Assembly (NCBI GenBank): GCA_963969595.1
Contig: OZ018410.1
Span: 28,958,913 to 29,022,912, forward strand
Reading direction: 5' to 3'
DNA length: 64,000 bases
From: Neckera pumila
Lineage: Eukaryota > Streptophyta > Bryopsida > Hypnales > Neckeraceae
Part shown: piece after piece, positions 11,759 to 59,441 of the stretch
Numbering within the stretch: position 1 is the stretch's first letter
Layout of the letters: each line of letters opens with the position of its first letter
Notes under the pieces: generated by a model
The model's database searches: none
What the model was told of the DNA's origin: nothing
What the model saw: the letters and a program-made list of their open reading frames with translations, nothing else
Translations under genes and position numbers: made by a program

Positions 11759-11781
11759 CACTATAAGAAATTGGCGTTTTT
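11759..11781 (+). repeat. Left terminal inverted repeat of the CACTA element
   Basis: Starts CACTATAAGAAATTGGCG and matches the right terminus for 23 bp. Preceded by target duplication TAT. Confidence 0.9.
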
Positions 11782-13210
11782 GATGCTTTTGGTAACAAAA
11801 CATCGGATGTTTTTCCAGACGTCATTGCGTTTGGCGGTTTCAGGCTACGGCATTGTGAATTCTGTCCGATGTCCCGCAAAACATGGGCCGTTCAGCTTTT
11901 AAACGCAGGGGTGTTAGCGCGGACGGGCATGTGCATATCATAAAACATGTGACGTCCATTTCAGACATCATTTGGAATGTAAGAAGTCCACATCAGCAAT
12001 GCATCAGTTTTCACTACGGATAAATGCAGGGAAGTTACAGGGGGCAAGGATAAAATGCTAATTGGAAGGAAAAAAATGAGTATGGGCAGTTGTCTCAGGG
12101 GAATGCCAAAAAAAATGTTGAAGTGGGATGTGAAGTGCTGCATGACGGGCCAAATGACCAGCAATGGACTCATACATAGTTCCATTAGCGCCAAGTCTAC
12201 ATTTAGGTCATTTCAACAATTATATGTATATATATAAATTATTATAATTACTATATAGCTTAAGACAAATAACATAAATTAAGTCATTGCACATATGAAT
12301 TAATTAAGCATGGACTGAATAAATCAAAGTGGAGTACATGTAATGCTCATCAAGTGTGCAATAATTATGTCAACATTTGAAGGATATAGGATTTGTAATA
12401 TTTAACCTTGGAAGAAATGGTTTGTGAAAAACATTGAATATTATTATTTAGAATTTTTTTTTATCTTCTAAGTATTGAAAGCAAAAAAGGGCTACAAAAA
12501 TTTAGATTTCAAAGTGACAACATCCACATTGTCTGAAATTCTATAAACACTATTAATAATAAAGGCTCTGATGGTGACGCGGAAAAAAAGGGAGAAAGAA
12601 TAAGGTAATTGCCGTGGATTGCGCTCAATGGTGACATGGTGAGAGACCTGTGGTTGTAGGACTTGGATAAGCATACAAATGTTGAATTCAAAATGTTGTC
12701 ACTCCTTCTGTGCTTTATTTAATATTGTTGATATAGTGAACAACAATTTTCAAGAAATCTTTGTTAGAAAAAATTTATTTATCATCAATCTTCATGCAAT
12801 GGTAATCCATTTGTATTCTCTACAAATGGGTTAGTTGAGGGCGGAGGCAATTTTTGTTCATTCCTCAACTTGTTCAATTACTCATTGTATACTTTAATAC
12901 ACTTCCGTATATCAAAATGGAGATGAATAGTCTTTATTCTTTAATGTGAGGAATTATAGGTTCCTGGCTTAACTTCTCAACAAATGAAACTGGTAGCCAA
13001 AAAGTGCTTTGCTGTTTGTGTTACATTCATGGAGCAATTCAGGGGTTAGGCCTTCTAACAATGTCCTACAAACCTATAGAGGATTCTATTGGATAAAAAT
13101 GTATAGTTCTCACATATAAAATTGCATTGCATAGTTTAATTTCTCTAAAAATATTGACGACCCCAAAATCTTTCAAGGTATTACATATTGGAAGTATCCT
13201 TCAGGATTAA
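11782..13210. other. CACTA left subterminal region
   Basis: No gene was recognised. The first ~250 bp contain CAGACGTCATTG, GTGACGTCC and related ACGTC words like those near the right end, typical of CACTA subterminal repeat zones. Short frames near 12.0-12.7 kb show no family features. Confidence 0.55.
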
Positions 13211-14850
13211 AACTGGGAAAAATTAATTGTGACAATTTACAAGTTATAACAAGGGAAAAATTATAAATGTGGCTGTTTCCTCTGAAGCAATAAAATAGCT
13301 AGGGAAGCTTGTGATTCAATGATTTGACCGCAAGTATATGACTAAAAAGAAGGACTAATACTCCTCAAATACAATTTAGTATATTCAAATTATCCTTTGG
13401 CTTGAGAAAAAAAATAATACTGAATATGAAATTGATCTTGCCAACTATTTAAATAAATGAAAATCCTCGCACTTTTAGTTCTGGACAAGGCAATAGCTAC
13501 AACATTCTAAAGGCTTCAAAGACTAATTATTCAATGCAATATAAATGAATGGCCCCAAAAAATATTCCAATATATTAAATATGAACTTTTATTTTGAAAA
13601 CAAAAGAAAACAATTATTCATGACCCCATTCTATTTGTGGGTAATAAATACTGGAATCACCATTTGGATTATAAGATATCTCCAAAATAGGGCAATTCTA
13701 TAAACACTTGGTACTCTATAATTATATATAGGCTAAATTAAGGTACAAATTGCAACATTATTCCTCAAATGGATTCTCCATTCATTAAAACAACTGAAAT
13801 TTGAGAGAACCCCCTTCAAGTGAGAAGCCATCATGTCACTATTAAAAAAAATGGAAAAAGGTAATACAACACTTTCTTACTTATAATTATGAAAGAAATA
13901 TAAGTGGCTGTTTCTTGCCGAGAAAAAAATAGGAAAAATTGTGAATGAATGGATTCCCCGAACTCAATTTGTGGAAAGAAGGACCGGTCCTCCTAAAATA
14001 CAGTTTGCATATACAGGATTATCCTTTTGCATGAAGCCCAAAAATAGATAATTATGAAAATGAAATTTATCGCATCTTCCTTAAATCATTGACCAGCTCT
14101 GCGTTGTTGCTCGTGAGTGAAGCAATAGCTAGAACATGCCAAAGGGCTAAAACAATTATTCCCCACCGGCCACTGCAACATGCATACATTGACGTAAAAA
14201 ATTGAAAAACATATATATGAAACGTAAACCTTAGGCACGAAGTTGTACTTCTCAACAATTATTGACAACCTCTAACTTCTCCTGTAGGGCCAATTCCTGA
14301 TTTATCCTGTGATTCCTACCCCCCTCTGCCCCAACTAGGCAATTCCAAGGACATTCAGTACTGACTAATCATAGATAGGTTTAAGGTTCAAGGTGCTTCA
14401 CTATTCCCCAAAATGCTTTTGAATTAATTACAACGACTACAAGTTGAGAAAACCACTGGCAAGAAGCCATTGTGTAGCGAGGAGAAACATTGGAAACAAA
14501 TTAATATAACAATTTCCAACTTACAATTATGAAAAAAAAATATATATGGCCTGTTCTTGTAAAGAAAAAAATAGGGAAAATTGTATATGAATGACTGCAT
14601 TCTGGCTACCGCACTAGAAGGAAGGACCACTATTCCTCAAATATGGTTCAACATACTTGGATTACCCTTTGCCATGAAGAGGAAAAAAAGGATAATATTC
14701 AATATGAAATTGAACCCCTTTTTTAAAAAAACAAACAAACCGTCTGCCATTGTCGTGAGTGAGGCTATACATGAAATATGCCTAAGGTTTTAGGAGATGA
14801 CCAACCACTGCAACATGAATGCATTGAAGACGGGGAGGCCCAAATATCCA
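13211..14850. repeat. Tandem repeat, ~640-bp unit, about 2.5 copies
   Basis: Units start near 13,215, 13,862 and 14,495. Each has, in order, a CAACTTACAATTATGA-like word, GTGGCTGTT or GGCCTGTT, AATAGGGAAAATTGT-like and GAAGGACYANTMYTCCTCAAA-like words. Then come GATTAYCCTTT, CATGAAG/CTTGAG, AATATGAAATTGA, and GTGAGTGA with AATATGC-like words. The third unit is shorter. It lies within the CACTA left subterminal region. Confidence 0.7.
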
Positions 14851-15343
14851 CCATTATTTTTTGTGGGACATTTATCCCACTTGTCAACAAATTTAGGGTT
14901 CACAAATGAAAGAGTGCTCATGTACTTCAAAAATGAATGCATGTGTCATTACAAGTACATTAGACGGACATGATATGCAAATTCAGTGGAATGCGGAAAA
15001 GGGGATCATTGCTTCAAATTCAACAATACATTTTTGTAACGTGCAAAGGAAGGTGGTTTAGACATCTTCTACAAAACTATGCCTTTTAGACGTGAATTTC
15101 CGGGAATATCTATCATGAGTATTATAAACTCAGAAAGAAGAGAAAACATGCTCCAAAGATGTCATCATCTTGAAGGTCAATGATGTTGAGGGGACGCTGA
15201 CAACGTCATTCTCAATGTCTACGGAGACATCCTCCGTGACAGAGACTCCAAACCTGACTAGACATGTGCTTTCATGTCAGCTACGACATGACAAAGCGAG
15301 TTTTTCACTGCAGTGCTGTTGGGACGGCAAGGCATGGAACTTT
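14851..15343. other. CACTA interior, no supported gene
   Basis: Less AT-rich than the flanks, with ACGTC-type words near 15,190-15,240. It lies just downstream of the transposase stop codon and probably represents its 3' region. Confidence 0.4.
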
Positions 15344-15531
15344 TCACTCCAGTGCCGTAGACTCTGCATATCTTCCTGCCTCCGTTGGTGGAGGTATGTA
15401 CATGCCGCCTACTATTGTTGCTTCTCTTGTGGGCTCTGAGTCTAGCACTTCTGGTTGCAATCCTACATATTCCTCATCCTTTCCCACTGCGACCATACGG
15501 GGGATGGATTGGTTGCTTCGTGGTTGCCTGC
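15344..15531 (-). pseudogene. CACTA transposase, 3' end (beyond solo LTR A)
   Basis: About 60 codons on the minus strand, containing GKDEEYVGLQPEVLDSEP and IVGGMYIPPPTEAGRY, end at a TGA at 15,344-15,346. This was identified by removing solo LTR A. If one copy of the 5-bp duplication is kept, the frame runs from the DUF4216 block at 18,845 directly into this segment. It is probably the C-terminal tail of the TNP2-type transposase. I do not recognise the tail itself as a named domain. Confidence 0.65.
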
Positions 15532-15804
15532 TGTCGCAACCAGAATTTTTGGTTTTCCTTTGCTTATCGAAATATTGGAACGGAAACGGGTAATTAGGAT
15601 CCGTATCCGGTTAGAGGGGCAGAAGGAAATTGGAGATAGACAATGCTAATCCAATAAGGAGAAAATAGGATCTGATCCGGTCAAAATGTTAGTATTCAGG
15701 AGCGGAATCACATCTGGATCTCACCTCAGTTGGATTAGGGTTGGACCGGATTGATATGGACCGGACCGGAAAAGGTCATGATGACCTGCCAGGGGTCCTG
15801 GGAC

Positions 15805-15813
15805 TATATAAAA
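15805..15813 (+). promoter_or_regulatory. First TATA box of LTR A
   Basis: TATATAAAA in GGGACTATATAAAAG, about 280 bp upstream of the embedded frame's ATG. The same box is at 21,199 in B and 54,482 in D. It is well placed to drive the LTR-embedded ORF. Confidence 0.7.
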
Positions 15814-16084
15814 GATAGTCGTCCTCATTTTCACTCTTTTACTTCCCTCGACTTCTGGAGCTAACTTTGAGCGCTTTTAGGCCTCCGTCTGCGCCAGAGC
15901 CGTTGTATGTGTGTGTGCTTCCGGCCGGGCATGTCAGAGTGTGTAGGAAAGGTAGAAAGCGTGTGGGTTGCAGATTTTGTGTTGTTTTTTGGTTGAGATC
16001 GGACGAGAGGAAGTGAAGAACGGGACGTGCGGCTAGGAGAGAGTGAGGTAGTGATTGGTAAGGATCCAGAGGCCACTCATGTCC

Positions 16085-17738
16085 ATGCCTCAACTGCGTA
16101 AGGCCAGACCGGGCGCGCCCAGTTCCTCCTCCAATGTCAAGCTCCGGAAGGTAGTTCCGGTCATTCCTACAGCGGAACCGGCCAGGTCCGAGCTCATGGA
16201 GGATCTCAACGCGATGGGGTGTCTCGTGTTGATGGACAAACCTTGGGGGTTTAGGAAGGAGCGGATGGTGAGAGAGTTGAAGTGTAAGGCGTCGAACGAG
16301 TTCGACAACACGCTTCAGGGTCGCCCGACCGAATGGGAAGAAGAAAGGTGGAGGGAAGTTTACAACTTCCGGATGGGAGGTTCCAGCATGGCTGGAAGGA
16401 AAGACGAGTTCATCCATGATAAGTTCCATGGAGAGTCGAGCAACAAGGATGGGTACGCGGTTGCTGATTGCAAGAGCAACCGGCACCGTAATCTCCTGTA
16501 GTTCCTGGTTCCGATCGTCCACCCGGAGAAGCCGACAAGGGTGACGATGACCATTGGCAACACCATTTTCCGGTTCCCTAAGTGGAGAACGGAAAGTGAA
16601 TTGGGCCCGGATCTTTTCCGATCTGGTGTCCCAGCTGGTGATGAGGATCGGAAAGAGTAGGGCCACTCCTTTGAGTCCCTATCTCTTCCACCTCTACCAC
16701 CGCAACCAACTCCTCACAAATACGGAGGAGAAGACGTGGAGCCTTCAGGAGTCTATCCTGAAATACGGGGAGTTGGGTTTGGATGACAAACATGAAGAGC
16801 AAACCGGGTCCGAACCCAAGACAGAAAAAGAAGAAGAGGAGGAGCAACTCCGGCCGAGGAAGCGGATGAAGACAACGCCTCTTCGCAAAAGAGGAACCCC
16901 TCCTACCACCCGGTCGACTCCAGAACAGGGACCGAATGTGGAGATGCCGGATCCCGAAGACCCGACCAACCCGTTCAACCAGTTGACAATAATTCTATGC
17001 GGGATACGAGCGGACTGGGAGGTCAAGAGGAGGGCCCTCGCTAGTATTGGAAATCTTGTGGGTGCACCGGTGGATAGAAATTTACTGGGTAAGGTGAGCC
17101 AGTATCTGTCCGATCCGGATGAGCATCGGAGGTAGGAGGCAAAGATTCGTCGGCTTCTGGAGGAAGTCAACACTCTGAAGGCTGACATGGTAGCCCTCAG
17201 AGAAGACAAAGCTGTAGTCCAAGAGATGGTGGAAGCAACCCGGAAGGTGGCCGAGTTGGTGAAGGACACTCTTGGAGAATCCGGATCCACCGCAGTCAAA
17301 GCGGAATTGTTTGACAAAGAGGTGCATGAGGAGAAGAAGGTATCCGGTTCCCGGATAGTTCGGATCTTCACCGACTTCACCGATTGGGTGGAAGCATCCT
17401 TGGTGGCAGTAAGAGAGGCGGCCAACCGGATGGACATCAGCAGTCGAAAGCTGAATAGGTCCATGTACTCCCAGGAGATCTACCTCTCGAACATATCACT
17501 ACCGGATTTGTTTGCAGCCGAAGGGTCAAATCCGAGGGAGCCCAAGGATCAGACACCTGAGTCAAGGAAGAGTAACCGGAGATCTGGGCCTGGACAACCA
17601 ATTTAGTTGGATTCATCGCCAAGGTGAGATCTTCCGGATTCAGCTGCCGGGGAGCGGAGCCGAAACCTTGCTGACGTCTTCAACCAACTGCCCGAGAAAT
17701 CCAAGAGTCCTACGCTGGGTGGGGGAGTTGGAGAGTAG
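16085..17738 (+). pseudogene. LTR-embedded ORF, copy A (broken)
   Basis: The frame runs from ATGCCTCAACTGCG to the stop after GGGVGE-like codons, about 550 codons. The N-terminal third has MDKPWGFRKERMVREL, RGRPTEWEEERWREVYNF and a PIVHPEK block; in general shape it recalls the plant transposon protein domain of retroelements (low-confidence inference). The middle is acidic (KEEEEEQLR) followed by a basic, nuclear-signal-like RPRKRMKTTPLRKRG. The C-terminal part is a heptad-rich probable coiled coil (EEVNTLKADMVALREDKAAV-type). It is broken by several nonsense codons, mostly TAG where copy C or D keeps CAG, and by at least one frameshift in the 16.5-kb stretch. Function is unknown; I do not recognise Gag zinc knuckles. 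Confidence 0.7.
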
Positions 17739-17873
17739 GTAGGTAGGTAGGAATGTAAAGTTTTGTAAGATAGTTGGGACTAGATCGGATGTTGATCCGA
17801 TCTGGCTGGTTAGGATTGGACTCGGATGTCCAGCGCGGATTTCCGGGGGCCTTTTTGCCTTGTAATCAAGTTG

Positions 17874-17880
17874 TATATAA
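17874..17880 (+). promoter_or_regulatory. Second TATA box of LTR A
   Basis: TATATAA in AAGTTGTATATAAGTCAG, downstream of the embedded ORF and about 970 bp before the LTR end. Conserved at 46,893-46,899 (C, minus) and 56,548 (D). Its position fits the retroelement's own U3 promoter. Confidence 0.65.
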
Positions 17881-18844
17881 GTCAGTCCCTACTTGGGAGC
17901 TGGGAGTCTTTTTGCCCAAATTTTGTGTACGTCTTCTCTTGGCCTCTTATTGAGTGTCTCTCCCGTGTGTGGCAGGGTTGTGTGGTGAGGAGTTAGGAAG
18001 GCGCATGCTTGTGCGGGTGTGATTTCTCCCCTTGGTGTTCTTGTTTTTATCTTATGTGCAAGTGAGCGGGTTGTAAAAAAGTTGGGAGTGGATTTCAGTT
18101 TCTCAGCAACTCTAAGGTTTAGGATTCCGGACGAGACAACCGTTGTTAGGCTAGGCGGATAGGGAGGGATTCCTTAGTTGTGCTAGAACTTCTGGGTTGG
18201 AAATTCAATTGAGTGTCCGATCTCCTGAGAGATCTTGCTGCCTTAGTGGGCAAACGGAAGGACTTTAATTGATGTTGGAACGGATGGGTTCACTTGCAAC
18301 CGCCCGGCTTTGTACAGACAGAACGTGGCGCTAAGGTCGTTGTAGTATGAAAGGATCATACAGGGGGTCTTTGTGTGATCGGTGATCCAGAGAGTTCACT
18401 GGATTGTTGCAAAGGATCAAACCGGATCCGGATTAGTGTAGGAAATTGAAAAATAGAAAAGTGGGTTTTCAGCCACTATAAATCACAAAAGGAGCGGTGG
18501 GCCTGCCACTTTCAAAATCAAGGGGCGAACCCTCTGATGGTGAAACAGAGGTTAAACTAAACCGGATGGTAGTAAAAGCGGATGTGAGCTGATCAGACCG
18601 GATTGGAAAGCTAATTGGATCGGAGAAGGAAAAGAAGGTCTGATTGTAGTTCTTGGTGTTGTTGTGTTTCCGGTTGTGGTGTTAGGACCGGAAGAGGAAA
18701 TAATGGTACTGACTTAGCTTAGAGACCAAATAAGGCTAGATACTTCACAGAATCTTGCAAGTTTGATCTTTAGAGTCACTTTGTTATACTTTAAAGTATT
18801 TTTTGGTAGTATAACTGGGAATTTGCTTGCCCTATGCTGCAACA

Positions 18845-20927
18845 CCCACATCTACCCCTCACGTCTGTACAGCATACAATTTTCCAGCCTAGTCTTTGGG
18901 GGTCATTGAAGAAGAATACTTGTTGACAATGCAATGGAAGTGCAAAAGAGTTGGCGTGCACCTTGCTGTCCATGCGGTTAAAGTTAGCCATGTTAAAGCC
19001 ATACCAAACCCAGTGAATATTTTGAAAGCAAGCATCTTAGCTTCCTTTAACCCAATTGCACACAAAGACAGTGGTTCAATGACTGCAATAGTCCAATTCA
19101 AGAATCTCTTCAATGTACCCAATATAGTCATCAGTTCTCTCAATGCGATGCCCATTGCGAAGCCCCCATCAAATTTGTCGAGTGAAAGAGGCTACCACAT
19201 AGGAATCGCGTGTGACAAGGCTGCCTTCAGCACACCGCACATGGAAATGTGTGCCGAAGGCATACATCTGTCTATGTGAGACAGCAAATTGTTTTGGAGG
19301 CTGCCCATATTGAATAATATCTTCATTGACATGTTGACCTCCATCTCGAAATGTTTGCACTCTTGCACTCAGCCACGTTGTAAAGGATGGCAAATATACA
19401 ATTCCAATGGATAGCGGACAAGCACGGAAGCATTGCGACGACAAAATTCTCTACGGAATGTCTCCCTCTCCTTTCAACGCTTTTCTCTAGCCACCTTATA
19501 CTCCCTATACCACATTCCAGCCACAAGTAAGAAGAACGGGCATGGAAATACTATGGCAAAACACCAAGGTCAGCAGACATGGAACACAGCAGACGTTGTC
19601 ATTGACAAGCCAGCTAATAGACAGACGTCAAAAAGGACTTCTTCACAGACACTTTGACAATTAGCGCCTCCGCAATCTATCCACCAGCAACGTCACAAGT
19701 GACATCGCACACAGAAAAGTGCGCTAAAAAATGGAGACAATGGACAACAAAAGAGTAACAACCTAAACATTCATTGACCAAATCAATGATGAAGGACATA
19801 ATGATTGGGAAGATGGACTCACTGCTGCCAATGCTCCAAGCATGCCGCATTGTCTAGAACAAAGGCATGTGCATAGGCGCAGAACTCATCCAACATCTTC
19901 CACCTTCGCTGGGAGTTTCTACAAAGAATCTACAAAGATTCATGGTTGGATCTTCTTCCACATCCCATACACGGCGCACTGTTCCTCTATATTGATGCAT
20001 GTCCTCCGTGCAAAATCCCAGCGTATCATCCATTCGATACCCTTCCGCAATGCTACCCTCCGGATGTGCAAAAGTTCTCACATAGTCCTTCAATATTTTC
20101 ATATATTGCTCTATTGGATACGTCCATCGACAATGCATGGGACTGCATCGAAACAATTGCTCCACCAAGTGCACGGGCAAATGCGTCATAATGTTTAGAA
20201 ATGTCGGGGGAAATTCCTTCTCCAGCACGCATGTTGCCATGACCACGTCATGCATCATGTCATGTTCATCTGCCAAGCTTACCTCTTTTGCGCATAGCCT
20301 TTGAAAAACTCTGTTGATTTTAATTATTGCTAGGCGCACACTTTTGTCCAGTACATTGCAAACCGTTACAGGGAGAATCTGAGGACATCATACGTAAGAA
20401 ACCATACATTAGTAAGGGACACAGTCAACTAAATAGACATGGATGTTTCACTTTTAGGCATGAGGATAGCTAGTGACCTTGCCCTATAGGCAACGTCTAC
20501 AGGGACAGAGGCCACGCAGACCTATCTCCTCACGGCGTTTGTGACAACACCATCTGTGACGTGGCTAACCGCCACAACTGATGCCATTGACATCACGGCC
20601 GACAAGAACACGTCCACTAAAATGTCATATGGGACACATGCGTACTTGCACATTGGCGTCCGCCATATGTCTACTTTTGTTTATTGCCTGTGTTCAATTA
20701 GGTTTCAGCTCACCTATTGCATGAGGACGTGGTAATCATGCGTTTTCATGCATTGGAGTTTCTCGTCCACTAAGCGCTTGTGAATGCTGCCCACATAGTT
20801 TGTAGGGGTACAAATATTAGAAACAATTGTGATGAACTCTTGGCGTTCATAAGGCTTCAATACATATAGGGCATGCGGCATGTAGTATGCATCTTATTGC
20901 CATTGTGGAGGTTGCAGCCATATCTCC
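18845..20927 (-). pseudogene. CACTA TNP2-type transposase (DUF4218, DUF4216), broken
   Basis: This is the transposase for mobilising CACTA elements. Reading right to left, the first exon contains YMPHALYVLKPYERQEF and ends KTHDYHVLMQ. A GT-AG intron (20,379-20,713) follows. The next exon opens ILPVTVCNVL and carries the DUF4218 signature EKEFPPTFLNIMTHLPVHLVEQ, WTYPIEQYMKILKDYVR and HPEGSIAEGY. Near 18,845-19,140 the DUF4216 signature DDYIGYIEEILELDY, QQVFFFNDPQRLGWKIV appears. Stops include TAA in the first exon, TAG just before the intron, and TGA and TAA in the DUF4216 block. The N-terminal half (transposase_21 region) is absent, lost at LTR B. The middle part, 19.15-19.85 kb, is hard to splice by eye. 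Confidence 0.85.
20379..20713 (-). other. Intron of the CACTA transposase
   Basis: The donor reads AG|GTGAGC and the acceptor TCCTCAG|ATT, on the minus strand. Removing 335 nt joins HVLMQ to ILPV across one TAG codon, the expected junction in TNP2-type transposases. Confidence 0.7.
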
Positions 20928-21925: not shown

Positions 21926-22158
21926 GCGACTGTAGGTCGAGGGGCAACTGTGGGTCCACAAAATGGGCGACCGCAGGTCCCAAACAGGGGCGACCACGGG
22001 TCCAAGACAAAGGCGACCGCGGGTCTGAAACCAAGGCGACTTCGGGTCCAAAATGAGGGCGACCGCGGGTCTAAAACCAGGGCGACTTTGGGTCAAAATT
22101 GAGGGCGACCGCGAGTCCTGAATGAGGCGAACGCGGTTTTGGGAGGTGACCGCGGTTA
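21926..22158 (+). repeat. GCGACCGCGGGTC minisatellite, array 1
   Basis: About ten degenerate copies of GGGCGACCGCGGGTCC spaced about 22-24 bp. No gene adjoins it directly; it lies between truncated LTR B and MITE P6. It may be the promoter remnant of a lost minus-strand gene. Confidence 0.8.
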
Positions 22159-22162
22159 TTGT

Positions 22163-23092
22163 TTAACCCCTAAAGGACCGCTTGTCCCCTCGGGGGACAA
22201 AATGGGTCCGGACGGCGGGCAGGTTTCTATGGTCTCAATATGAAATCAGATTTTTTGGGATTTTTGGAGGTGGTGTATTTTTCCGAGAGCTTCGTGGATA
22301 TATAATTTTTATTTTATTTGATGCTTGTGAGCAAAAGTTATCGCACAATAAGCAAAAGCAGAGTTTGGCGGGCAGCACACAAAAAATCACAAAAAGTCAA
22401 AATCAATTTTTTTCAAATTTTTTTTCTCAAAGATTAAATTTTTGTCTATATGTGAAGCTTTGTTTCATTCAATTTGGACAAAAAATGAGAAAGTTATAGA
22501 CAATCTAAGCATCTTTTTGAAAAATAAGTTGTTGAATTCATTTTTGATTTCAATTTTTAGAATTAAAAAAAAAAAATGTTAGGTAAGGTTAGATTTTCTT
22601 GCTAAAACAATCTCACCATTGGGATTATAAGATTATTGTGATTTCAATTCCATCTAAAAGCTATTAACAATTTTGTTTTTTCTCCAATCTTGAACCGACC
22701 TCTAGTTAACAATTTTTTAATGAATGAAAATTAAGTGACTTTTTTTCTAAATTTCTGTGGTAGACTGTCAACTCAACTACTTAACATAAATAAGTAGAAA
22801 ATCAAAATCATTAGTGTAAAAAATTTGAACTAAAAAGATTCAAAGACAATAAATCTAATCAAGTGAGGTGCAGAAATTTTTGTTTTCTTCTTTTTAAATG
22901 CATATATCTAACAATCTACATGGTCAAAGTTTTTGAAATTTCTTCTATGTATTCATATACAAGTCAAGTATAAGATCTTACAATTGGATATGCCAAAAAA
23001 AAAAAAATTTAAAGTTCTTTTCTCTTTGCAATAGAAATGACAATTTTGAATAGTTTTTGATAGGAAAATCACCTTGGTCCTTTAGGGGTTAA
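22163..23092 (+). mobile_element. TTAA MITE, type A (P6)
   Basis: TTAA at both ends, CCCCTAAAGGACC and GGTCCTTTAGGGG, 930 bp. The left arm has the TGTCCCCTCGGGGGACA hairpin and CGGGCAGG. Internal words are those of P5 and P11. Non-coding. Confidence 0.9.
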
Positions 23093-23416
23093 ATGCTACA
23101 TAATGATATAATAATAACCCGAGGTATTAATAGTAAATATAAGTCGACATAATTTTGCAATAGAATAATACAATTTTCACATACACAATTATAGTCAATT
23201 CAATAATAATAGCAACAATAGCAATAATAATATTTATAATAAATAGATAATATTAGGGAATGTATATGTCAATTGAATTCTCACATTAACATCTCTAACA
23301 AGATGCCACCCTGTACTCAACCGTAGTCCTGCCTAAATCATTTGGCCAAAAAGCATTTACTTCAAAATAAAGGAAAAAACCAATACTATTTGAATCCTTT
23401 GACTTCTACAGTTGTA

Positions 23417-26816: not shown

Positions 26817-27040
26817 AGGCAGGATTTTCAATGCCTTTCACCCGAAAAAAGACTTACCAATCCAAATGACCAATAGAAAGAAGTTATGACAAAGCCACTT
26901 GCCGCAGGACTTTTTCAAAGCCCTTAAAGCAAAGTGGTTGCCCCTCAAAGACTTAAACGTACGCAAGAAGCCTCTTTCAAAGGTTCCAGACAAGAGTTTG
27001 TCAACAAAGCAAGGTGAAAAAAAAATTGCCACCCTTTGGC

Positions 27041-39365: not shown

Positions 39366-39366
39366 G

Positions 39367-45559: not shown

Positions 45560-45927
45560 TATTGTTGGATTTATTATGCCCTCAACCTTTTTTAAGGCTA
45601 CATGTAAAGCTTGGCTTTGTTGTACTTAGAGTAATTTTAGAAAAATTTCTGGACAACTTTATTTTTGGGGCACTTTAAGCATTTTTTTTTAAAATTACAA
45701 TTCATGGGAGATTGGGAGTCCTTTTCGGATTTTGAATCCAATTTCAACAAGTCTTCACAAATTCTGTCTTGTAAAATGTGGAATTGTCTTAGTAAATTAA
45801 TCTCACCATTTTTGGGGGGATCTTGGAATCCCATGTAAGAGTTGTTCACAATTCTGGGTCTTTGTGAATCTTGGATACTTGGACCTACTTGTATGCAACA
45901 ATTTTGTAAAAATTCCAAATCAAGTGT
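45560..45927 (+). mobile_element. TTAA MITE, type A fragment (P14), cut by LTR C
   Basis: Contains CATGTAAAGCTTGGC, TCTGGACAACTTTATTTTTGGGG and AATCTCACCATTTTTGGGG, in the order of the type A middle, then stops at the LTR C boundary. No right half was found beyond LTR C. Confidence 0.55.
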
Positions 45928-46892: not shown

Positions 46893-46899
46893 TTATATA
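46893..46899 (-). promoter_or_regulatory. Second TATA box of LTR C
   Basis: TATATAA on the minus strand within AAGTTGTATATAAGTCAG, the same position as in LTRs A and D. Confidence 0.6.
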
Positions 46900-47042
46900 C
46901 AACTTGATTACAAAGCGAAAAGGCCCCCGAAAATCCGCGGTGGACATCCGGGTGCGATCCTAACCGGCCAGACCGGATAAACATCCGATTCGGTCCTAAC
47001 TATCTTACAAAAATTTACATTCCTAACTAACTTCCTACCTAC

Positions 47043-48680: not shown

Positions 48681-48775
48681 GGACACTAAATGACCACTGG
48701 ACCCTTACCAATTGCTACCTCAATTTCTCCTAGCCGCACGTCCCGTTCCTCACTTCTTCTCGTCCGATCTCAACC

Positions 48776-48960: not shown

Positions 48961-50085
48961 AAAAGCCGCGGAAGAAGTAGTTAATTAGGATGTTTTGATT
49001 TTTGATTAGGATTTGAATTCTAGTTTCGAAACGGATTTTCCGCGCTTGGGACCCTGGTTTCAGATTTATTTTTAGAATGAGCCGGCAGTGGACTTTCCGG
49101 ATATTTGGGGTGGTTCTCTAATTGGCTGCCCGGATTTCCGGGATGTTTTTTGGCTTTTAGGTGTTGGCTTTTTGTGGGTTTTTAAGGGCTGGCAAGCTTG
49201 TTGTGCTGGGATTCCCTCCTAGCAGATTTTCATTTGTATTCCATTCCTTTCTTTTAATCTAGATGCTGAGTGAGCTTTCGGATTTTCATCTTCGTGTTCA
49301 AGTGTTGGTCTAAATGCTTGTGACTGTACTAGAGTGTAAAGGAAGATGGGTGAGGAGGAATCCGGATCTTGGGTAGTTGATTCCATTTGAAAGGTACATT
49401 TGAGACAGTGTTAGATTCTTGACTGAGTGGAAGTGCACAGTGCCTTTAAACTACCGTAATGGTGATCCGGTTGATTGAGTAGCGGAAGCGAGTCCGGCTG
49501 TCAATTTGTGCGGAGATAAGCGCCCGCCCAGAGGAAGTCGCCACTCTCCCAAAAGGACTGCCAACCTCGAAATGGTCTAGCACTTAACAAACAACCCCCA
49601 ATAGGTTCTAGAACCCTGTGATCTGTTGTTGTAGTAAGAAGTGGATCGAGTCCTGAGTGACCTGCTTTCCGGATTGAGTGTCTGGGAAAGTTGTGAGGAT
49701 CCGGATCTTCTTTCCTTGTTACAACTCCTTTAAACATTTGAGTGTTTGTTTGTATTTGTCAAGTTCAGTGAGTGTGAGAATTAGAGTGGTGAAGTCCCTA
49801 CCCCTCGAAAGATCAAAGTAGACCCTCTAAAGATAAAACAGAGGTGAAAGAAACCATCTTGATTTGGAAGTGAAAATTGGATTCCGAGTAGAATCGGATT
49901 TGGATTGAATTCCGGATAGTTAAAAGTTCCGGAATTGAGTGAATAGGTGATTGGATTGAGGAGAAAAGAGAATCCGGAAAACTTGAAATGTGCAGCATCA
50001 TCTTGGAATTCCCTGGGACAATAACTTGTGTCATTTTAGCACAACTGTGTGGTTTTAGATCTTACGCCTAGATTGCGTGTACGCC
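48961..50085 (+). mobile_element. Diverged LTR-like or leader sequence upstream of pol
   Basis: It shares with LTR A/D a late block (ACCCTCT..., AACAGAGGT, AAACC) and GGAT-rich composition, and a GTTTTTAAGGGCTGGCAAGC possible promoter at about 49,180. It lacks the embedded ORF. It is either a related, shorter LTR or the 5' region of the pol-bearing element. Boundaries are uncertain. Confidence 0.4.
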
Positions 50086-50089
50086 TAGA

Positions 50090-53000
50090 TTGCGTGTACA
50101 ACACGTGGTCAACCGAGTATCGACTTGCAGTTCCACCAAGAACCAAACCGGACAGTCAGTCAAGAGAAGCAAGCGGAAGTCGAAGAGGAAACCAAAATCG
50201 AGTAGCGATTCGGATTTGCTTTCTCTAGAACAGAGACTGGAATTGGAGGTAAAACAATTGAAGGAAGGAGTAGACCGTAACCGGATTCTGATAGACATCA
50301 GTACAGAGATTTGCTGGAAAATCTCTGGACCGGATATCGTACGGAACCAAAAAACGGTTACATTTAGTAACGCCTCAGTGATCATTATTCCAAAGGTGAG
50401 TACCCACGAGTACAACATCATCTAGGATATTAAGGATCAGAAGGCGAATGTGACTATCGGACAGCTTGTGCATGACAACGTGATGTACCAGAAGCTAATC
50501 CAAGACGCCTGGACATGGAAACGGAAGAAGAAGGTGAAGCTACCAGCGGTGGCAATTAACTTTTCTCAAGCGGAAGATGTCGGAGCTCCAGAGGTCACTG
50601 TAGAGATAGAGGGATGTGTGATTCCCAGAGTTCCCATCGATGGCAGATCAAGAGTTAACCTGATGCTAAAAGATACAGCATTTGATTTGGGATTCACTAC
50701 ATTTGAAGCCACGGAACAAGTATTTCGGATGGCGGACCAGTCTTGAGGACACTCGATTGGTAGACTTTCACAAGTGCCAACCTGGATTGGAGAGAAGGAC
50801 TATCTGTTGAACTACGTCATCATCCGTGTTCATAAAGGTAGACCCTTTCCGATGTTACTCGGAAGACCTTGGTTATATTCTGCCCCGGTTCTTGTGGATT
50901 GGGGAGCCAAGGAACTGGTGGTAGGGAAACCTTCTACCCAGATTCTTTGGGCCAGAGAGAAACATTTGGGAGAGACCAGCGACTCAAATGGTTACACGAC
51001 AAATTGGTCAGATCCGGAAGACTCTGCTGCAAGTTATTATGTAGATCCATTCGAGCACCAATCCGAGGGAAATTATGGATTCTTCGATGCGGTGTTAGAA
51101 CATGAACCGAGAGAAATCTAGGAGACTGGGTTGGAAGATCGATCCTTAGGGGAGTCAAGTGTTCCGCTCACAGTTGAGTGGATCGCTCAACAGATCAGGA
51201 GTGGAAATCTTCCAACAAATGAGGGTGAGATGAGGGAATCGGGTTGGAGAAATTTAGCATCCTTTCCAAAGGAAGAATACGCGAAAAAAGTCAAGCCGGT
51301 TGTTTCACCCACTGATTATGAGGAGGAGAGTATTGGACCCGACAAGAGTTTCTATCTTAATAAGCTCTTGAATAATACGGAAAGATCCGGTTATATTCAA
51401 CTTTTGAAGGAATACCTTGACATTTTTGCTTGGAAGCCATCCGACCTGAAGGGAATTTCTTCTCACCTTGGAGAGCATCGCATCAACTTAGTGGAAGGAT
51501 CCATTCCGGTCCAACAGCGACAGTACCGGCTCAATCCTAAATATTCGTTGATGGTTAAGGAGGAAATCAATTGACTATTGGAGGCGGGATTCATCTATCT
51601 GGTCCACAACTCCGAATGGATTTCCCCCATTGTGATTGTTCCAAAGAAGGTCGGAGCAGATGGGAAAGTCAAGATCCGAGTTTGTCAAGACTTCTGAAAA
51701 TTGAATGCAGCCACAAAAAAAGACTATTTCCCTCTTTTGTTCACTGATATTATTTTGGATCACGTTGCTGGACATGAGTGCTATAGTTTCTTGGATGAAT
51801 TTTCTGGTTATAACCAGGTATTCATCCGGTGGTGCAATCAGCTGAAGACAACATTTACGACGGAGTGGGGGACTTATGCCTTCACCCGGATGCCGTTTGG
51901 TTTGTGTAATGCACCCGGAACATTTCAGCGACTCATGATGGACATCTTCAAAGACTTCCTTCAGCATTTTATTGAAGTGTTTATAGACGACTTTGCGGTT
52001 TTCAGCGACCGGGAAAGTCATCTTGAGTGTTTGAGGAAGACATTCTAGAAGTGCCGAGAGAGCAGTTTGAAGCTACACCCAAGAAAATGTTTTTTCGAAA
52101 TGGGATCCGAAATTCTGCTCAGTCACATGGTAAGCCAAACCGGATTACAGGTGGACCTGGAAAAGGTGAAAGTGATGCTTTCCCTATTACCTCCAACCAG
52201 CGTAAAAGAAGTTCGCGGATTTCTTGGATGTGTGGGCTACTACAGGCGGTTCATCGATGGATATGCCAAGAGGGCTATTCCACTCACAGAACTTCTCAAG
52301 AAGGATATGGAATTTGTTTGGATCGGAAAGAGACAGCAGGCCTTTGAGGATCTGAAGACCCAGTTGGCTAAAGCTCCGATCTTGTTGGTTCCGGATTGGA
52401 CCAAGGAGTTCCATGTTATTATCGATGCATTGGGTTGGTGTTTGGGGTCCATTATGTGGCAATTTGACATAGAAAGGCGGGAGAACCCGATCTATTATGC
52501 GAGTAGACAAATGAGTTTGGCGGAACGAAATTACACCACCACAGAACAGGAAGCGCTAGCCGTGGTCTATTCCTGTAAGAAGTTTCGGCATTATTCACTG
52601 GGCTACAAGGTAATTTTTCACACGGATCATGATTCTTTGAAATACCTTGTGAACAAACTGAATTTGTTAGGCCGGATTGCTAGATGGATTTTGCTCTTAC
52701 AAGAGTTTGATTATAAAGTTGTAGTCAAGCCCGGAAAGGCAAATGTTAATGCGGATTACCTCTCGAGGCAGAGAGGGCAAAAATCCATCGCGAATATCTC
52801 TGCCGAGTTTTCGGATGAACTTCCGAATCTGGTAGTGATAGAAAAATTAGATTCTCCTTTGGTTGAAGTCTTTTACCTCAATGATGAGTTTGTTTCTGAA
52901 TATCAGGACATCATAGATTACCTAATGAAGTCTAGATATCCGGAACAAATGAGTCCCGAGGAGAAAGAAATTTTCCAAAAGAAAGTGGCTCCTTATACTT

Positions 53001-54172
53001 TGATTAAAGGAGTCCTTTTTAAGTTAGGAATTGATGACGTTCTCAGGCGATGTCTAGAACCCCCGAAACGGAAGAAGGTGATCCAAGCTCTTCACGCGAG
53101 AAGTTCAGGAGGGCATTTTGCCTTTGTAAGTATAGTAAACCGGATCCGATCAACCGGATACTGGTGGCCGTATTTACATAAAGATGTGAGGAATTTTGTT
53201 CAGAGTTGTGATCATTGTCAGCGGATAGGAGCCTCGTCCTTCCGGAACCACTGGCCACTAACTCCTATCATTCCTCTAGCGCCATTCAAGAAATGAAGGA
53301 TAGATTTTATTGGGCCTATCTTTCCGGTCAGTAGACGGAAGAAGAGGTACATTATCCTAGCCACGAATTATGCCACGAAATGGGTGGAGGCCAAAGCAAC
53401 ACGGAAGAATGACGCGGAGACTTCAGTGAACTTTTTGTTTGAAGAAATCCTCATGCAATTTGGTCATCCACTTGAGCTGGTCAGCGACCGGGGGACCCAT
53501 TTCCTCAATGACGTTATTGTCAACCTAATGACCAAGTACCTTATCAAGCACCGGAAGACAACTCCTTACAATCCTAAAGCAAACGGATTGATGGAGCGGG
53601 CAAACGGGATTGTCGGTAAGATCTTGAACAAGATGGTTTCCACTCACAAGACGGATTGGGCCCGGAAACTACCTTTAGCAGTACACGCGTACAACACCAC
53701 AGAGAAAACCACAACCGGAAAGACACCGTACTTTTTGGTCTTTGGTCAGGAGGCAATTCATGGAGTGGAGTTGGACGTGGAAACTTTCCAAGTCATGGCA
53801 GCTCGAAGTGTGGAGTCAAAAAGAGATACCTTTCCCTGACTCCTCGCCATTAAAGAACTGGAGGAGATCTGGAATACGGCCTTGGAGAGAACCTTGGAAG
53901 TGCAGAATAAGCGCAAGGAAGACTACGACCAGAAACTTCCAGCCGATCACGGAATCCAAGAGGGAGGACTAGTTCTCCTCTATGACAATCGTCACAAGGA
54001 TTTTCCAAGTAAACTGCACACCCGATGGATGGGACCTTTCCGAGTCAACCAAATTTTCCAGAATGGATCTCTACAATTGGAGAATTTACGAGGTCAGTGG
54101 CTTGACACTTGGATGAATGGATCAAGGGTGAAGAAGTACATTGCTGCTACTTCTTTCGACGACCCCAAATGA
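50090..54172 (+). pseudogene. pol: Ty3/gypsy pol (PR-RT-RH-IN), eight nonsense codons
   Basis: A single frame of ~1,361 codons with no frameshift. Domains in order: a Lys/Ser-rich N-terminus; a protease-like segment near 50,580-50,890 (VPIDGRSRVNLM, LGRPWLY); reverse transcriptase 51,480-52,300 (FLDEFSGYNQV, MPFGLCNAPGTFQR and FIDDF at the catalytic box); RNase H 52,400-52,720 (TTEQEALAVVYSCKKFRHY, FHTDHDSLKYL); integrase 53,080-53,760 with an HHCC-like CDHC finger and a D,D35E core (SDRGTHF, GLMERANG). A WMGPFRV C-terminal segment follows; no chromodomain was seen. Stops at 50,423, 50,744, 51,119, 51,572, 51,695, 52,046, 53,294 and 53,837 inactivate it. The layout recalls plant non-chromoviral (Tat/Athila-like) lineages. 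Confidence 0.92.
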
Positions 54173-54208: not shown

Positions 54209-54481
54209 TGTCACAACTAGAATTTTTGGTTTTCCTTTGCTTACCTAAAATTTGGAACGGAAACAGGTAATTAGGATCCGGATCCTGTTAGGGGGCAAAA
54301 GAAAACTGAAGATAGACAATGCTAATCCAGTAAGGAGAAAACCGGATTTGATTTGGTCAGACTGTTAGTACTTAGGAGTGGAATCACATCCGGATCTCAC
54401 CTCAAATCGGATTAGGGTTGAACCGGATTGATATGGACCGGACCGGAAAAGGTCATGATGACCAGCCAGGGGTTCCGGGAC

Positions 54482-54490
54482 TATATAAAG
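54482..54490 (+). promoter_or_regulatory. First TATA box of LTR D
   Basis: TATATAAAG about 280 bp upstream of the embedded ORF start at 54,761. Confidence 0.65.
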
Positions 54491-54760
54491 GTTGGTCGTC
54501 TCCATTTTCACTCCTTTACTTCCCTTGAGTTCTAGAGCTAACCTTGAGCGCTTTTACGCCTCCGTTTGCGCCAGAGCTGTTGTGTGGGTGTGAACCTCAA
54601 GCCGGGCACATCAGGGTGTAAGAGAGGTAGGCATTGTATGGATTGCAAGTTTTGTGTTGTCTTTCAATTGAGATTGGACGAGAAGAAGTGAGGAACGGGA
54701 CGTGCGGCTAGGAGAGAATGAGGTAGCGACCAGGAAGGGTCCAGTTAGCCATCTGTGTCC

Positions 54761-56412
54761 ATGCCTCAGCTGCGTAAGAGCAGATCGGGAGCGCCCAATT
54801 CCTTCTCCGACATCAAACTCCGGAAAGTAGTTCCGGTTATTCCTACCGTGAAACCAGCAAAGACCAACTCATGGAGGATCTCAACACGATGGGCTGTCTG
54901 GTGTTGATGGATAAGCCCTGGGGGATTAGGGAGGATCGGATGGTGAGAGAGCTAAAGTGCAAGGTGTCGAATCAGTTCGACAACACACCCCGGGGCCGCC
55001 CGACCAAGTGGGAAGAAGAGAAGTGGAGGGATGTCTACAACTTTCAGATGGAAGGTTCCGGCATGGCTGGACAGAGAGTCGAATTCATTCATGACAGGCT
55101 CCATGGAGAGCCGAGCAGCAAGGATGGATACGCGGTCGCGGATTGCAAGAGCGACTGGCACCTCCGTCTTTTCTAGTTCCTAGTTCCGATCATCCACCCG
55201 GAGAAGCTGACGAGGGTAACGATGACCATCGGCAACACGATTTTCAGTTCCCTAAGCGAGGAACGGAAGGTGAATTAGGCCCGGATCTTTTGCGATCTAG
55301 TGTCTCAGCTTGTGATGAGGATTGGGAAGAGGAGGGCCACTCCTTTGAGTCCCTATCTCTTCCACCTCTACCATTGCAATCAACTCCTTACGGATACAAA
55401 GGAGAAAACATGGAACCTTCAGGAATCTATCCTGAAGTACGGGGAGTCGGGTTCGGATGACGAGCCGGAAGATCCAACCGGATCCAAACCCGAGACAAAA
55501 GAGGAAGATGAGGAGGAGTACCTCCGGACGAGGAAGCGGATGAAGACAACGCCTCCTCGCAAGAGAGGAACCTCTCCTACCAACCGGTCAACTCCAAAAC
55601 AGGGACCAGAAGTGGAGATGCCGGATCCCGAAGACCCGACCGACCCGTTCAATCAGCTGATTGTAATTATGTGCGGGATACAAGCAGATTGGGAGGTCAA
55701 GAGGAGAACCCTCGCTAGTGTCGGAGAGCTGGTGGGTGCACCAAGACATAGCAAGCTATCGGGTAAGGTGGCACAGTATCTATCTAATCCGGATGAGCAC
55801 CGAAAGCAGAAGGCAGAGATTTGTCGGCTTCAGAAGGAAGTCGACATTCTGAAGGCCGAGATGGTAGCCTTCAGAGAGGACAAAGCCGCAGTCCAAGAAA
55901 TGGCGGAAGCAACCCGAAAGGTGGCCAAGTCTGTAAAGGCCACCCTTGAAGAGTCCGGATTCGCCGCGGTCAAGGCGGAATAATTTGATAAAGGGATGCA
56001 TGAGGAGAAGAAGGTATCCGGTTCCCGGATAGTTTGGATCCTGACCGACTTCACCAATCGGGTGGAAGTGTCATTGGTGGCGGCAAGGGAGGCTGCCAAC
56101 CGGATGGATATCAGCAGCCAGAAGCTGAACGAGTCCATGTACTCTTGGGAGATCCAACTTTTGGACCTCTCGCTACCGAATTCGTTTGCAACCGGAGGAT
56201 CAAATCCAAGGGAGCCCAAGGATCAGACGCCTGAGTCAAGAAAGAGTCACCAAAGGGCTGGGCCTGGACAACCAATTCATTTGGATTCATCGCCAGGATC
56301 AGATCTTCCGGATCCTGCTGCCGGGGAGCGGAGCAGGAACCTGACCGAAGTTTTCAACCAATTGCCCGCGGAACCCAAGAGTCCTACGCTGGGTGGGGGA
56401 GTTGGAGAGTAG
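54761..56412 (+). pseudogene. LTR-embedded ORF, copy D (broken)
   Basis: ATGCCTCAGCTGCG at 54,761. A one-base deletion near 54,865 shifts the frame, which resumes at MEDLNTMGCLVLMDKPWGI. NFQMEGSGMAG and GEPSSKDGYAVADCKSDWH follow, then a stop at 55,174, an altered frame to about 55,300, LVMRIGKRRATPLSPYLFHL and KEEDEEEYLRTRKRMKTTPP. The coiled coil is cut by TAA at 55,981. The end GGGVGE matches copy A. Four copies sharing this layout indicate the ORF is an original part of the LTR. Confidence 0.7.
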
Positions 56413-56547
56413 GTAGGTAGGTAGGAATGTAATTTTTGTAAGATATTTAGGACCGGATCGGATGTTGACCCGGTCTTACCGGTTAGGATCAAACTCAAAT
56501 GTCCAGCGCGGATTTCCAGGGGCCTTTTTGCCTTTGTAATCAAGTTG

Positions 56548-56555
56548 TATATAAG
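56548..56555 (+). promoter_or_regulatory. Second TATA box of LTR D
   Basis: TATATAAG 136 bp after the embedded ORF stop and about 965 bp before the LTR end; the probable retroelement promoter. Confidence 0.6.
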
Positions 56556-57517
56556 TCAGTCCTTGCTTGGAAGTTGCGAGTCTTTTCGCCCAAATTTTGT
56601 GTATATTTTCTCTTGGCTACTTGTTGCATGTCTCTCCCGTGTGTGGCAAGGTTGTGTGGTGAAGAGTTAGAAAGGCGCGTGCTGGTTTGGATGTGATTTC
56701 TCCCTTTGGTGTTCTTGTTTTTGATCTTATGTGCAAGTGAGCGGGTTATAAAAGAGTTGGGAGTGGATTTCAGTTCCTTAGCATTTCCAAGGTTTAGAAT
56801 TCCGAGCAAGACAGCCGTTGTTAGGCTAGCCAAATAGGGAGGGATTCCTTAGTCGCGCTAGAACTCCTGGGTGGAAAATCCGGTTGAGTATCCGATCTCC
56901 TGAGATATCTTGCTGCCCTAGTGGCAAACTAAAGAATTTTAGTTGATGTTGGAACGGACGGGTTCACTCGCAATCGCCTGAATTTGTATAGACGGAACTT
57001 GGCGCTAAGGTCATTGTAGTATGAGGGGATCATACGGGGGGTCTTTTTGTGACCGATAATCCGGAGAGTTCTCTGGATTGCTGTGAAGGATCAAATTGTA
57101 TCCATATTAGTGTAGGAAATTGGAGAATAGAAAAGTGGGTCTTCTGCCACTATAAGTCACGGAAGGAATGGCGGGCTTGCCACTCGCAAAAGCAAGCGGC
57201 GAACCCTCTGATGGTGAAACAGAGGTAAAATTAAATCGGATGGGAATAAAAGCGGATGTGAGTTGATCAAACTGGATCGGAAAGTTGGCCGGATCGGGAA
57301 AGGAGAAGAGGGTCTGATTGTAATGTTTGGTGTTGTTGTGTTTCCGGTTGTGGTGTTAGGATTGGAAGAGGAAATACAGGTACTGACTGAGCTTAGAAAC
57401 CAAATAAGGCTAGATACTTCACAGAATCTCGCGGGTTCGATCTTTAGAGTCACTTTGTTATACTTTAAAGTGGTTTTTGGTAGTATAACTGGGAATTGCT
57501 TGCCCTATGCTGTGACG

Positions 57518-58261: not shown

Positions 58262-58819
58262 CTAATGGCTATCCCCCGGGGAGATCACTTAAAGGGTCCA
58301 TTAGGCACTATGTGCATTAAGATTTTAGACCCCCTATTTTATGTTCTAAAATATAAATAAAAAGAAAAGAAGAAAATATGACTAAATTTTCCTACTTTGA
58401 AAGTTTGTGTTTTGAATTATTGATTATTTTATTTGTTAATTATAATTAGTTACTAATTTTGAAGTAAAAAGATACACTACAGAGCTGAAAATAATTTTCA
58501 CACCTCTATTTTATATAAGAAAAAATTGTTAAGAAAATACACAAAAAATCCTCAAAAATAACTCTTTGTTGAAAGTTCGTATTCCTTGAATATTGGTGCG
58601 ATGGTCATCTAAATGTATTTGAATTGGGAGATTTTAAATAATGGTATTTGAATTGGGAGATTTTGGCAATAGAAACCTATAGCCTTTGTTAAACAATGCT
58701 CAAAATTATAGGTTGAAATCATAGTTCATTAAAAAATAAATAGGGGGGCAAAAAATCAATTGAACACATGGAGTTAGCTATAGATACACTAAGTGATCTT
58801 CTCGGGGGCTATCTAGTAG
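58262..58819. mobile_element. Terminal-inverted-repeat element, ~558 bp
   Basis: GGCTATCCCCCGGGGAGATC ACTTA at the left is inverted at the right as TAAGTGATC TTCTCGGGGGCTAT. The interior is AT-rich and non-coding. No clear target duplication was seen, so the superfamily is unknown. Confidence 0.55.
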
Positions 58820-59418
58820 AACATTAGTGGCAACAATAGGAGAAGGTTTTGGAGCATGACAAAAACGAGAATCATGTCAACAATGATATTGGTTTCTACA
58901 AAACCTTGTTATTGGAGATGTTGCTACAAACACGCCGTTCATTGTGCAACTCAGTTTCACAAACACACCATGCGTTCAATCTGATGTCCCATAAAACATC
59001 CACGCGTCTGAGACGACGTCAGAAAAAACAACACGGAAAGGTCCACGGCATTGCAGAATGCAGACTACATCCATGTCAGCCACTGCTATGCCAGAAAAAA
59101 GATAGTCCACGTCATTTTTTATAGGGGTCCATGTCACACCCACGTCAATAAGGGGTTGGATGAAAAAATTGCATGCTGGCCTTGCCTGCCCAATAGGCGC
59201 CTACGTGGAGCTCACATGGCCTCCACATGCCTTCATTTTGTGAGTTTGGAAGACCCCATTCTGTAGGACGTCAAAAAAAAACAAGCCACAAATTTGCATG
59301 TTTTTTGAGATCCTGTCACATTTTTTGCGTATCCGCCGTGACGCAATTTTAGGTGACATCAACATTGACGACGGCCATGTCAAAACAGACATCAAACGAC
59401 GTTTTTTTTGACGTTTTA
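58820..59418. other. CACTA right subterminal region
   Basis: Repeated ACGTC/GACGT words (GAGACGACGTCAG, CCACGTCATTTT, CCCACGTCAATAAGG, GGACGTCAAAA, GACGACGGCC) approach the right terminus, like those near the left end. No gene was recognised. Confidence 0.6.
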
Positions 59419-59441
59419 AAAAACGCCAATTTCTTATAGTG
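59419..59441 (-). repeat. Right terminal inverted repeat of the CACTA element
   Basis: Ends CGCCAATTTCTTATAGTG, the exact inverse of the left terminus over 23 bp, followed by target duplication TAT. Confidence 0.9.

Follow-up and report, generated by a model that had tools for sequence, protein, structure and literature searches.

A 47.7-kb CACTA-bounded interval in Neckera pumila as a probable nested composite enclosing a truncated copy of a dispersed multigene unit

In the moss Neckera pumila, two perfect CACTA-type transposon termini face each other across 47.7 kb of contig C3, and they raise the question of whether everything between them moved there as a single element. We examined a 64,000-nucleotide stretch around this locus (hereafter the window; C3:28,958,913-29,022,912) within a genome of 339.5 Mb in 18 contigs. 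A preliminary description had interpreted the interval as an unusually large CACTA element with a multigene cargo. We find that one CACTA insertion left its footprint at this locus, and that the element which inserted into a TTAA miniature inverted-repeat transposable element (MITE) was very likely of ordinary size for its family, having later been gutted and filled. Because the interval would thus be a nested composite, 47.7 kb is its present length and not the size of the element that transposed. As for the multigene block, we identify it as a truncated copy of a dispersed unit distinct from the CACTA element, and not as cargo of the latter.

The footprint consists of the following features, in window coordinates:

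11759-11781, plus strand: left CACTA terminal inverted repeat, CACTATAAGAAATTGGCGTTTTT, 23 bp, 0 mismatches
59419-59441, minus strand: right CACTA terminal inverted repeat, CACTATAAGAAATTGGCGTTTTT, 23 bp, 0 mismatches
10516-10588, minus strand: outer piece of the split TTAA MITE's left half, joining in register with the right half
10589-11481, plus strand: P5, a second TTAA MITE of about 0.9 kb nested in the left half, with ends TTAACCCC...GGGGTTAA
11482-11758, minus strand: left half, inner piece, terminating in the target-site duplication TAT
59445-59468, minus strand: right half, first 24 bp, joining in register with the left half
59469-59723, no strand assigned: 255-bp insert in the right half, with a 76% relative within sequence sample L021
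59724-60262, minus strand: remainder of the right half, joining the 24-bp piece across the insert

Shuffled versions of the window (n=100) contained a mean of 0.00 such termini with up to three mismatches allowed, and the exact 23-mer occurs three times in the genome, at the two window ends and once on C8. The TAT duplication stands outside both termini (11756-11758 on the left, 59442-59444 on the right). Without P5 the left MITE half measures 350 bp, without the 255-bp insert the right half measures 563 bp, and the 913 bp that they form together run from TTAA to TTAA, starting with TTAATACCTAAAAG and ending with CTTTAGGGGTTAA. When aligned to the copy at 40030-40968, the joined sequence gave a single match over all 913 positions (65.5% identity, 27 gap openings) with the junction in register; the remaining local copies, of eight tried in all, gave one to nine alignment pieces. 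Because the termini are perfect, TAT lies on both sides and the flanks rejoin in register as one MITE, we conclude that this is the footprint of a single insertion, and to this point the preliminary description, which had proposed both the matched termini and the split MITE, holds.

Identity values by themselves would not suffice to place both MITE halves in one subfamily: against the eight local copies the left half shows 61-77% and the right half 62-69% identity, the left half being nearest to 8647-9460 (77%) and the right half having no particular nearest copy. The local copies are themselves about 66-83% alike where alignable, and P5 is 83% identical to 40034-40972. As a family, these MITEs, which we take to be piggyBac-like in form, are about 0.8-0.95 kb long, with TTAA ends and CCCCTAAAGG-like termini; copies lie at 8647-9460, 10589-11481, 22163-23093, 34214-35151, 40030-40968 and elsewhere, and related sequence was present in 12-13 of 20 sampled 10-kb stretches.

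The genome was searched for other copies with the same ends. A 400-bp left-end query gave 12 candidates, all of which were scored and matched, whereas a 500-bp right-end query gave 312, the best 40 of which were scored. Six of these 40 match the full 500 bp (window included) and 34 match only about 220-295 bp, among them one on C8 that is part of an 839-bp element with TAT on both sides. Six left ends had no partner among the best 40 right-end candidates. The other six form correctly oriented pairs with right ends:

window: 47,683 bp, target-site duplication TAT
C1: 20,361 bp, flanks AGA/CTT, no target-site duplication, left end mutated and beginning AACTA
C4 (20.3 Mb): 19,214 bp
C7: 18,852 bp
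C9: 33,891 bp
C4 (25.5 Mb): 16,815 bp

The 3-bp flanks are equal in five of the six (TAT, TAG, TTA, TGA, AAA), and the terminal repeats of both C4 copies and of the C7 and C9 copies have 2-4 mismatches in 23 positions, compared with 23/23 matching in the window. These pairs bear directly on the possibility, named as a refutation in the preliminary description, that the termini belong to different CACTA copies, which would here lie 47.7 kb apart by chance with MITE halves from different MITEs. Such a reading could draw on the abundance of short right ends, on the differing nearest copies of the MITE halves, and on the window's two ends, which share no similar sequence beyond the 23 bp. It is nevertheless contradicted by the properly oriented pairs at five further loci, four of them with matching 3-bp duplications, by the C1 and C7 copies, which run collinear with the window inward from either end, and by the MITE junction in register; we therefore rejected it and regard it as extremely improbable. 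A k-mer count for subterminal repeats gave no clear common motif beyond the terminal repeat.

What, then, is the size of the element? Long copies of the family are few; four of the six paired copies measure 16.8-20.4 kb, and the other two 33.9 and 47.7 kb. The C1 copy encodes a tnp2-type transposase (PF02992, E 1.8e-48) and DUF4218; neither DUF4216 nor the transposase-associated domain turned up in the open reading frames (ORFs) scanned. Each of the C1 and C7 copies contains extra DNA, stretches of about 3.6-3.9 kb carrying gag-like ORFs, which the other copy lacks; since both carry such nested stretches, the core element is probably nearer 13-15 kb, shorter than 17 kb. Collinearity with these two copies, both compared over their full length, defines the CACTA backbone in the window:

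11759-15528, plus strand: left arm; C1 covers 11760-12529 and 14850-15528 (85-88%), C7 covers 11759-14420 in three pieces and 15162-15531 (77-84%)
18850-20926, minus strand: backbone that includes the 3' portion of the transposase gene, in two blocks, 88-89% to C1 and 86-91% to C7
57517-59441, plus strand: right arm, collinear with C1 and C7

Together these pieces amount to 7,772 bp, so that 84% of the interval is other DNA. Within these pieces, 12530-14420 is matched by C7 only and 14850-15161 by C1 only, and three stretches (14421-14849, about 20475-20600 and 58275-58806) are matched in collinear order by neither. Overall, the backbone is 88.6% identical to C1 (4594 columns) and 83.3% to C7 (5797 columns). 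The sole transposase part found in the window is a DUF4218 ORF at 20387-19857 (E 4.3e-27); searching the window with the ORFs from the tnp2 region of C1 produced no hit at E 1e-4. Where the window has 36.6 kb (20927-57516), C1 and C7 each have about 11 kb, and in C1 this stretch opens with the remainder of the transposase gene, including the tnp2 domain.

The non-backbone DNA comprises long terminal repeat (LTR) pieces, a retroelement remnant and the multigene block:

15529-18849, plus strand: 3.3-kb solo-LTR-like insertion with TG...CA ends and degenerate 5-bp flanks; the site is empty in C1 and C7
20927-21705, plus strand: 5' part of an LTR (TGTTGCAACC...), interrupting the transposase gene
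21706-45923, no strand assigned: truncated copy of the dispersed multigene unit, its genes separated by MITEs and other repeats (presumed outer limits)
45924-48775, minus strand: reversed, 5'-truncated LTR of the 3.3-kb family
50072-54172, plus strand: remnant of a Ty3/gypsy-type pol region (RNase H, H2C2, integrase), interrupted by in-frame stops
54209-57516, plus strand: 3.3-kb LTR, its end coinciding with the edge of the CACTA right arm

The 36.6 kb of foreign DNA are thus bordered by an LTR start (TGTTGCAACC) at one edge and an LTR end at the other, each within a base or two of the backbone. We considered whether the pieces at 20927 and 45924-48775 might be one LTR split by an inversion and rejected this: the 20927 piece is 74-76% identical to the others, which are 82-85% identical to one another. 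On C1, a 3.6-kb insertion (C1:516321-519958) with TG...CA ends and the 5-bp duplication TAACC encloses a 632-aa gag-like ORF. The three 3.3-kb LTR-like repeats of the window (15529-18849, 45924-48775, 54209-57516) share frames with this ORF; from these shared frames, the 3.3-kb LTRs seem to carry a gag-like frame.

As the footprint shows, a CACTA (En/Spm) element inserted by cut-and-paste into the TTAA MITE and produced the TAT duplication. We propose that the window copy then decayed, as one retroelement entered the transposase gene at 20927 and another came to end at 57516, and recombination or deletion between retroelements may have removed the roughly 11-kb CACTA middle including tnp2 (the loss itself is observed; the route is conjectural). 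A solo LTR arrived at 15529-18849, as the comparison with C1 and C7 shows, and a piece of about 24 kb of the dispersed unit, with its repeats, is likewise observed inside the CACTA element.

The alternative is that an element already of about 47.7 kb inserted into the MITE, in other words a giant CACTA that had captured a multigene block and carried it along. The split MITE and the target-site duplication do bracket the whole interval, and the terminal repeats are intact at both ends, as this alternative would predict. It fits poorly with the size of most paired family members, with the failure to find the block in the fully compared C1 and C7 relatives, and with the missing catalytic part of the transposase. 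In addition, the unit is 95.0% identical to its own relative compared with 83-89% between the backbone and its relatives, a contrast of averages under unequal sampling which shows that the unit is young and does not date the arrival of the CACTA element. Because of the family sizes, the empty sites and this contrast in age, we favor the gutting and filling of an ordinary CACTA and consider a pre-filled giant unlikely. The preliminary description therefore stands in that one insertion, with the boundaries and target duplication given, split the MITE, and in that the interval contains a multigene block; it fails as to an unusually large element carrying that block, with some 7.8 kb of backbone left and the block belonging to a dispersed unit.

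Several observations weigh against the composite interpretation, in addition to the limits of the age contrast. The order of events is our reconstruction, and mobilization of an already filled element to this site in trans is conceivable. No target-site duplications were found for the LTRs at 20927 and 57516. The C1 copy, with its AGA/CTT flanks and mutated left end, leaves one of the six pairs without a target-site duplication, and the C9 copy, at 33.9 kb, is likewise long.

The block itself holds four genes, each with a GC-rich tandem array upstream, and a fifth array:

21943-22145, minus strand: GC-rich tandem array (unit about 23 bp), the fifth array, facing no identified gene
23736-26837, minus strand: hAT-like gene, comprising a DUF659 ORF at 25359-26837 (E 1e-33) and a downstream ORF at 23736-24881 without a Pfam match
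27100-27645, minus strand: GC-rich array ahead of the DUF659 gene, interrupted by a 238-bp fold-back MITE of CACTA type
27201-27438: this MITE, a near-perfect fold-back flanked on either side by GCA; its two ends carry CACTACAAGAAA and TTATAGTG
30061-31629, minus strand: g30, an ORF with one in-frame stop and no Pfam family at the cut-off
31966-32141, minus strand: GC-rich array upstream of g30, followed by TATTAAAAG
35600-36190, plus strand: GC-rich array upstream of the kinase-like gene
36342-37628, plus strand: atypical protein-kinase-like gene with a truncated ORF (Pkinase match of 30.5 bits, under the cut-off of 31.7; E 3.1e-7)
41139-41253, plus strand: GC-rich array upstream of g41
41621-43110, plus strand: g41, two overlapping ORFs, a paralogue of g30 (36% over 175 aa)

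Every array is built of 17-23-bp GC-rich units around GACCCGCGGTCGCC. The units read in the sense direction, with two exceptions: one site at g41, and the array of the kinase-like gene, which has ten distal antisense sites and, closest to the gene, three sense sites. By eye, a TATA-like box after the array is clear for g30 (TATTAAAAG) and DUF659 (TATAAAAG) and weaker for the others. The gene beyond the array at 21943-22145 has probably been cut off. With two mismatches allowed, a 200-kb sample (20 x 10 kb, four of these adjoining the window) contains one array site, and one further site lies in 50 kb around the C1 CACTA copy (497813), outside the element. We also considered a giant CACTA with arrays of its own and rejected it, as zero sites were present in the C1 or C7 copies at the same stringency.

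The kinase-like ORF is 80% identical to the 546-aa protein P0046. Canonical kinases carry the motifs HRD and DFG; in the relatives of the kinase-like protein, HND replaces HRD and CDWG replaces DFG. At E 0.01 the window ORFs showed no hAT dimer domain (PF05699); the relatives P0020 and P0034 do have it. Protein searches returned metagenomic relatives without useful names.

To what does this block belong? Protein searches for g30 (114 of 367 candidates scored) and DUF659 (87 of 307) gave at least 115 and at least 91 matches, respectively, the former count being a lower bound. Close g30 copies (87-100% amino-acid identity) account for at least 17 of these matches, or 15 loci on eight contigs, window included. 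Linkage was counted for 40 of the 115 g30 matches and 59 of the 91 DUF659 matches. A DUF659 match lies downstream of g30, on the same strand and within 20 kb, in 15 of 16 close matches (14 of 15 loci) and in 16 of 24 diverged ones, and in no case upstream on that strand; opposite-strand DUF659 was absent from the matches counted and occurred once (C3:35595119, 36%) among those left out. The exceptions are the close locus C3:35585355 and the other eight diverged matches, which have none of the counted DUF659 matches in place, and a DUF659 copy at C2:19313856 (86-88%) without a g30 match nearby among the matches listed.

The upstream regions of all five close g30 copies sampled are 91-93% identical to the window (gaps omitted) and keep the array. 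Arrays are also present at a g41 copy and at a third paralogue in C1:21.00-21.01 Mb, making seven of seven gene copies read elsewhere; between unit copies, the array regions differ more through gaps. This C1 copy of the unit, at a different place from the C1 CACTA, was sampled with six 550-bp pieces (C1:20.987-21.001 Mb). Collinear matches to the window were obtained for five of them, in the case of L057 limited to the first 122 bp, and L058 had no match in the window. The identity of 95.0% given above is that to the copy at C1:20.99-21.00 Mb, over 3781 columns (the matched samples plus L046 and L051, gaps omitted, 19 columns counted twice), with single stretches at 92.9-97.5%. The common extent of the unit was thus sampled over 28565-41704 against this copy, and protein linkage covers it from the DUF659 gene onward. 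Linkage of the kinase was seen at C1:20.99-21.00 Mb only (samples L053, L054).

Five loci (C1, C4, two on C11, C2) have a g41-like match followed, about 6.5 kb further on, by a third g30-like match on the other strand. Order and strand suggest that these are g41 and the third paralogue, and sequence comparison confirms this for the C1 g41 only. The window has no third g30-like match after g41, which supports a truncation of its unit on the right.

These data led us to consider, tentatively and with somewhat less than even confidence, that the unit is mobile and represents a giant DNA transposon with several genes, among them a hAT-like transposase gene (DUF659), all driven by shared GC-rich array promoters; it would have entered the CACTA whole or truncated. 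The spread of close g30 copies, the downstream position of DUF659, the arrays at every gene copy read and the collinear C1 samples all agree with mobility. A dispersed segmental duplication would yield an equal pattern, however, and no ends, terminal repeats or target duplications were found in a search confined to 21.7-45.95 kb, where exact 13-mers gave array matches and a few short ones only. The undetected dimer domain in the window and the unlinked g30 and DUF659 copies also speak against mobility.

The block could instead be ordinary host sequence spread by segmental duplication, its array-bearing genes forming a host multigene family, which we regard as only slightly less probable than mobility. 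Besides the missing termini, two of the matching C1 samples sit in repeats at equivalent places (28565-29114 and 38535-39088); because these repeats are equally placed in the C1 copy, large stretches were copied together with old repeats. A probable large palindrome on C11, described below, would also suit duplication. On the other hand, gene order is constant across eight contigs, the most regular neighbour is a hAT-like transposase gene, and g30 subfamilies at 41-58% amino-acid identity retain the DUF659 linkage. Returning to mobility, the block may, on what we offer as a tentative proposal, derive by truncation from a giant multigene DNA transposon of a kind not yet described. Its products would be a hAT-like transposase with DUF659, an atypical kinase, and two or three proteins related to one another (g30, g41 and the third paralogue, predicted by eye to be coiled-coil-like), each gene behind its own version of the array. 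As part of the same tentative proposal, the lineage may be old, its diverged g30 subfamilies still linked to DUF659 and its genes concentrated on a 12.3-Mb contig. If so, the arrays could switch the whole gene set together, and co-control of transposon genes by tandem-repeat promoters would become testable. A mobile unit would also be a plant-like counterpart to the giant cargo transposons of fungi and fish.

Compared with known systems, the family shares with plant CACTA (En/Spm) elements the inverted termini starting with CACTA, the 3-bp duplication, Transposase_21 (tnp2) and DUF4218; the window copy differs in that no tnp2 domain was found in it and most of its interval is non-backbone. The domain set given for Chenopodium CACTA elements in PMC8978399 includes Transposase_21, DUF4218, DUF4216 and others. 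Enlarged EnSpm families of 16-20 kb with 4-5 ORFs in the red alga Chondrus crispus, as cited in PMC6431247, resemble four of our six paired members in size, but part of the length here is nested DNA (the C1 and C7 stretches). Pack-CACTA gene capture, as described in PMC13317346, likewise places non-CACTA genes between CACTA ends; here, by contrast, the genes come from another, nested dispersed unit, and capture via aberrant excision is unneeded. As in DUF659 hAT transposons, the ORF at 25359-26837 carries DUF659 and some relatives have PF05699, but here its same-strand neighbour is g30, and a kinase-like gene, g41 and array-bearing upstream regions go with it. Among the titles and openings of abstracts listed, a literature search returned no nested CACTA like this one and no DUF659-kinase multigene unit, which is no proof of absence. 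The locus offers a clean example of how a sound argument from terminal repeats and a split site can overstate the size of a transposon, the bracket being real and its content mostly other elements, and it brings to light a recurrent multigene unit with a common upstream architecture.

Scans of the window for tRNAs and Rfam families were empty. A second AT-rich repeat family, of about 0.7-0.95 kb, has copies at 9516-10213, 28567-29511 and 44239-45184 that are 71-75% alike. Contig C11 (12.3 of 339.5 Mb, 3.6%) holds 47 of the 115 g30 and 24 of the 91 DUF659 matches among those listed; it might, at a guess, be a sex or otherwise special chromosome. Matches between C11:11,677,000 and 11,851,000 are arranged as mirror images about a centre near 11,764,013, the coordinates of each pair adding up to one and the same value (11682595+11845432 = 11691526+11836501 = 11710944+11817083 = 23,528,027), and this region is probably a large palindrome with arms of about 87 kb or more.

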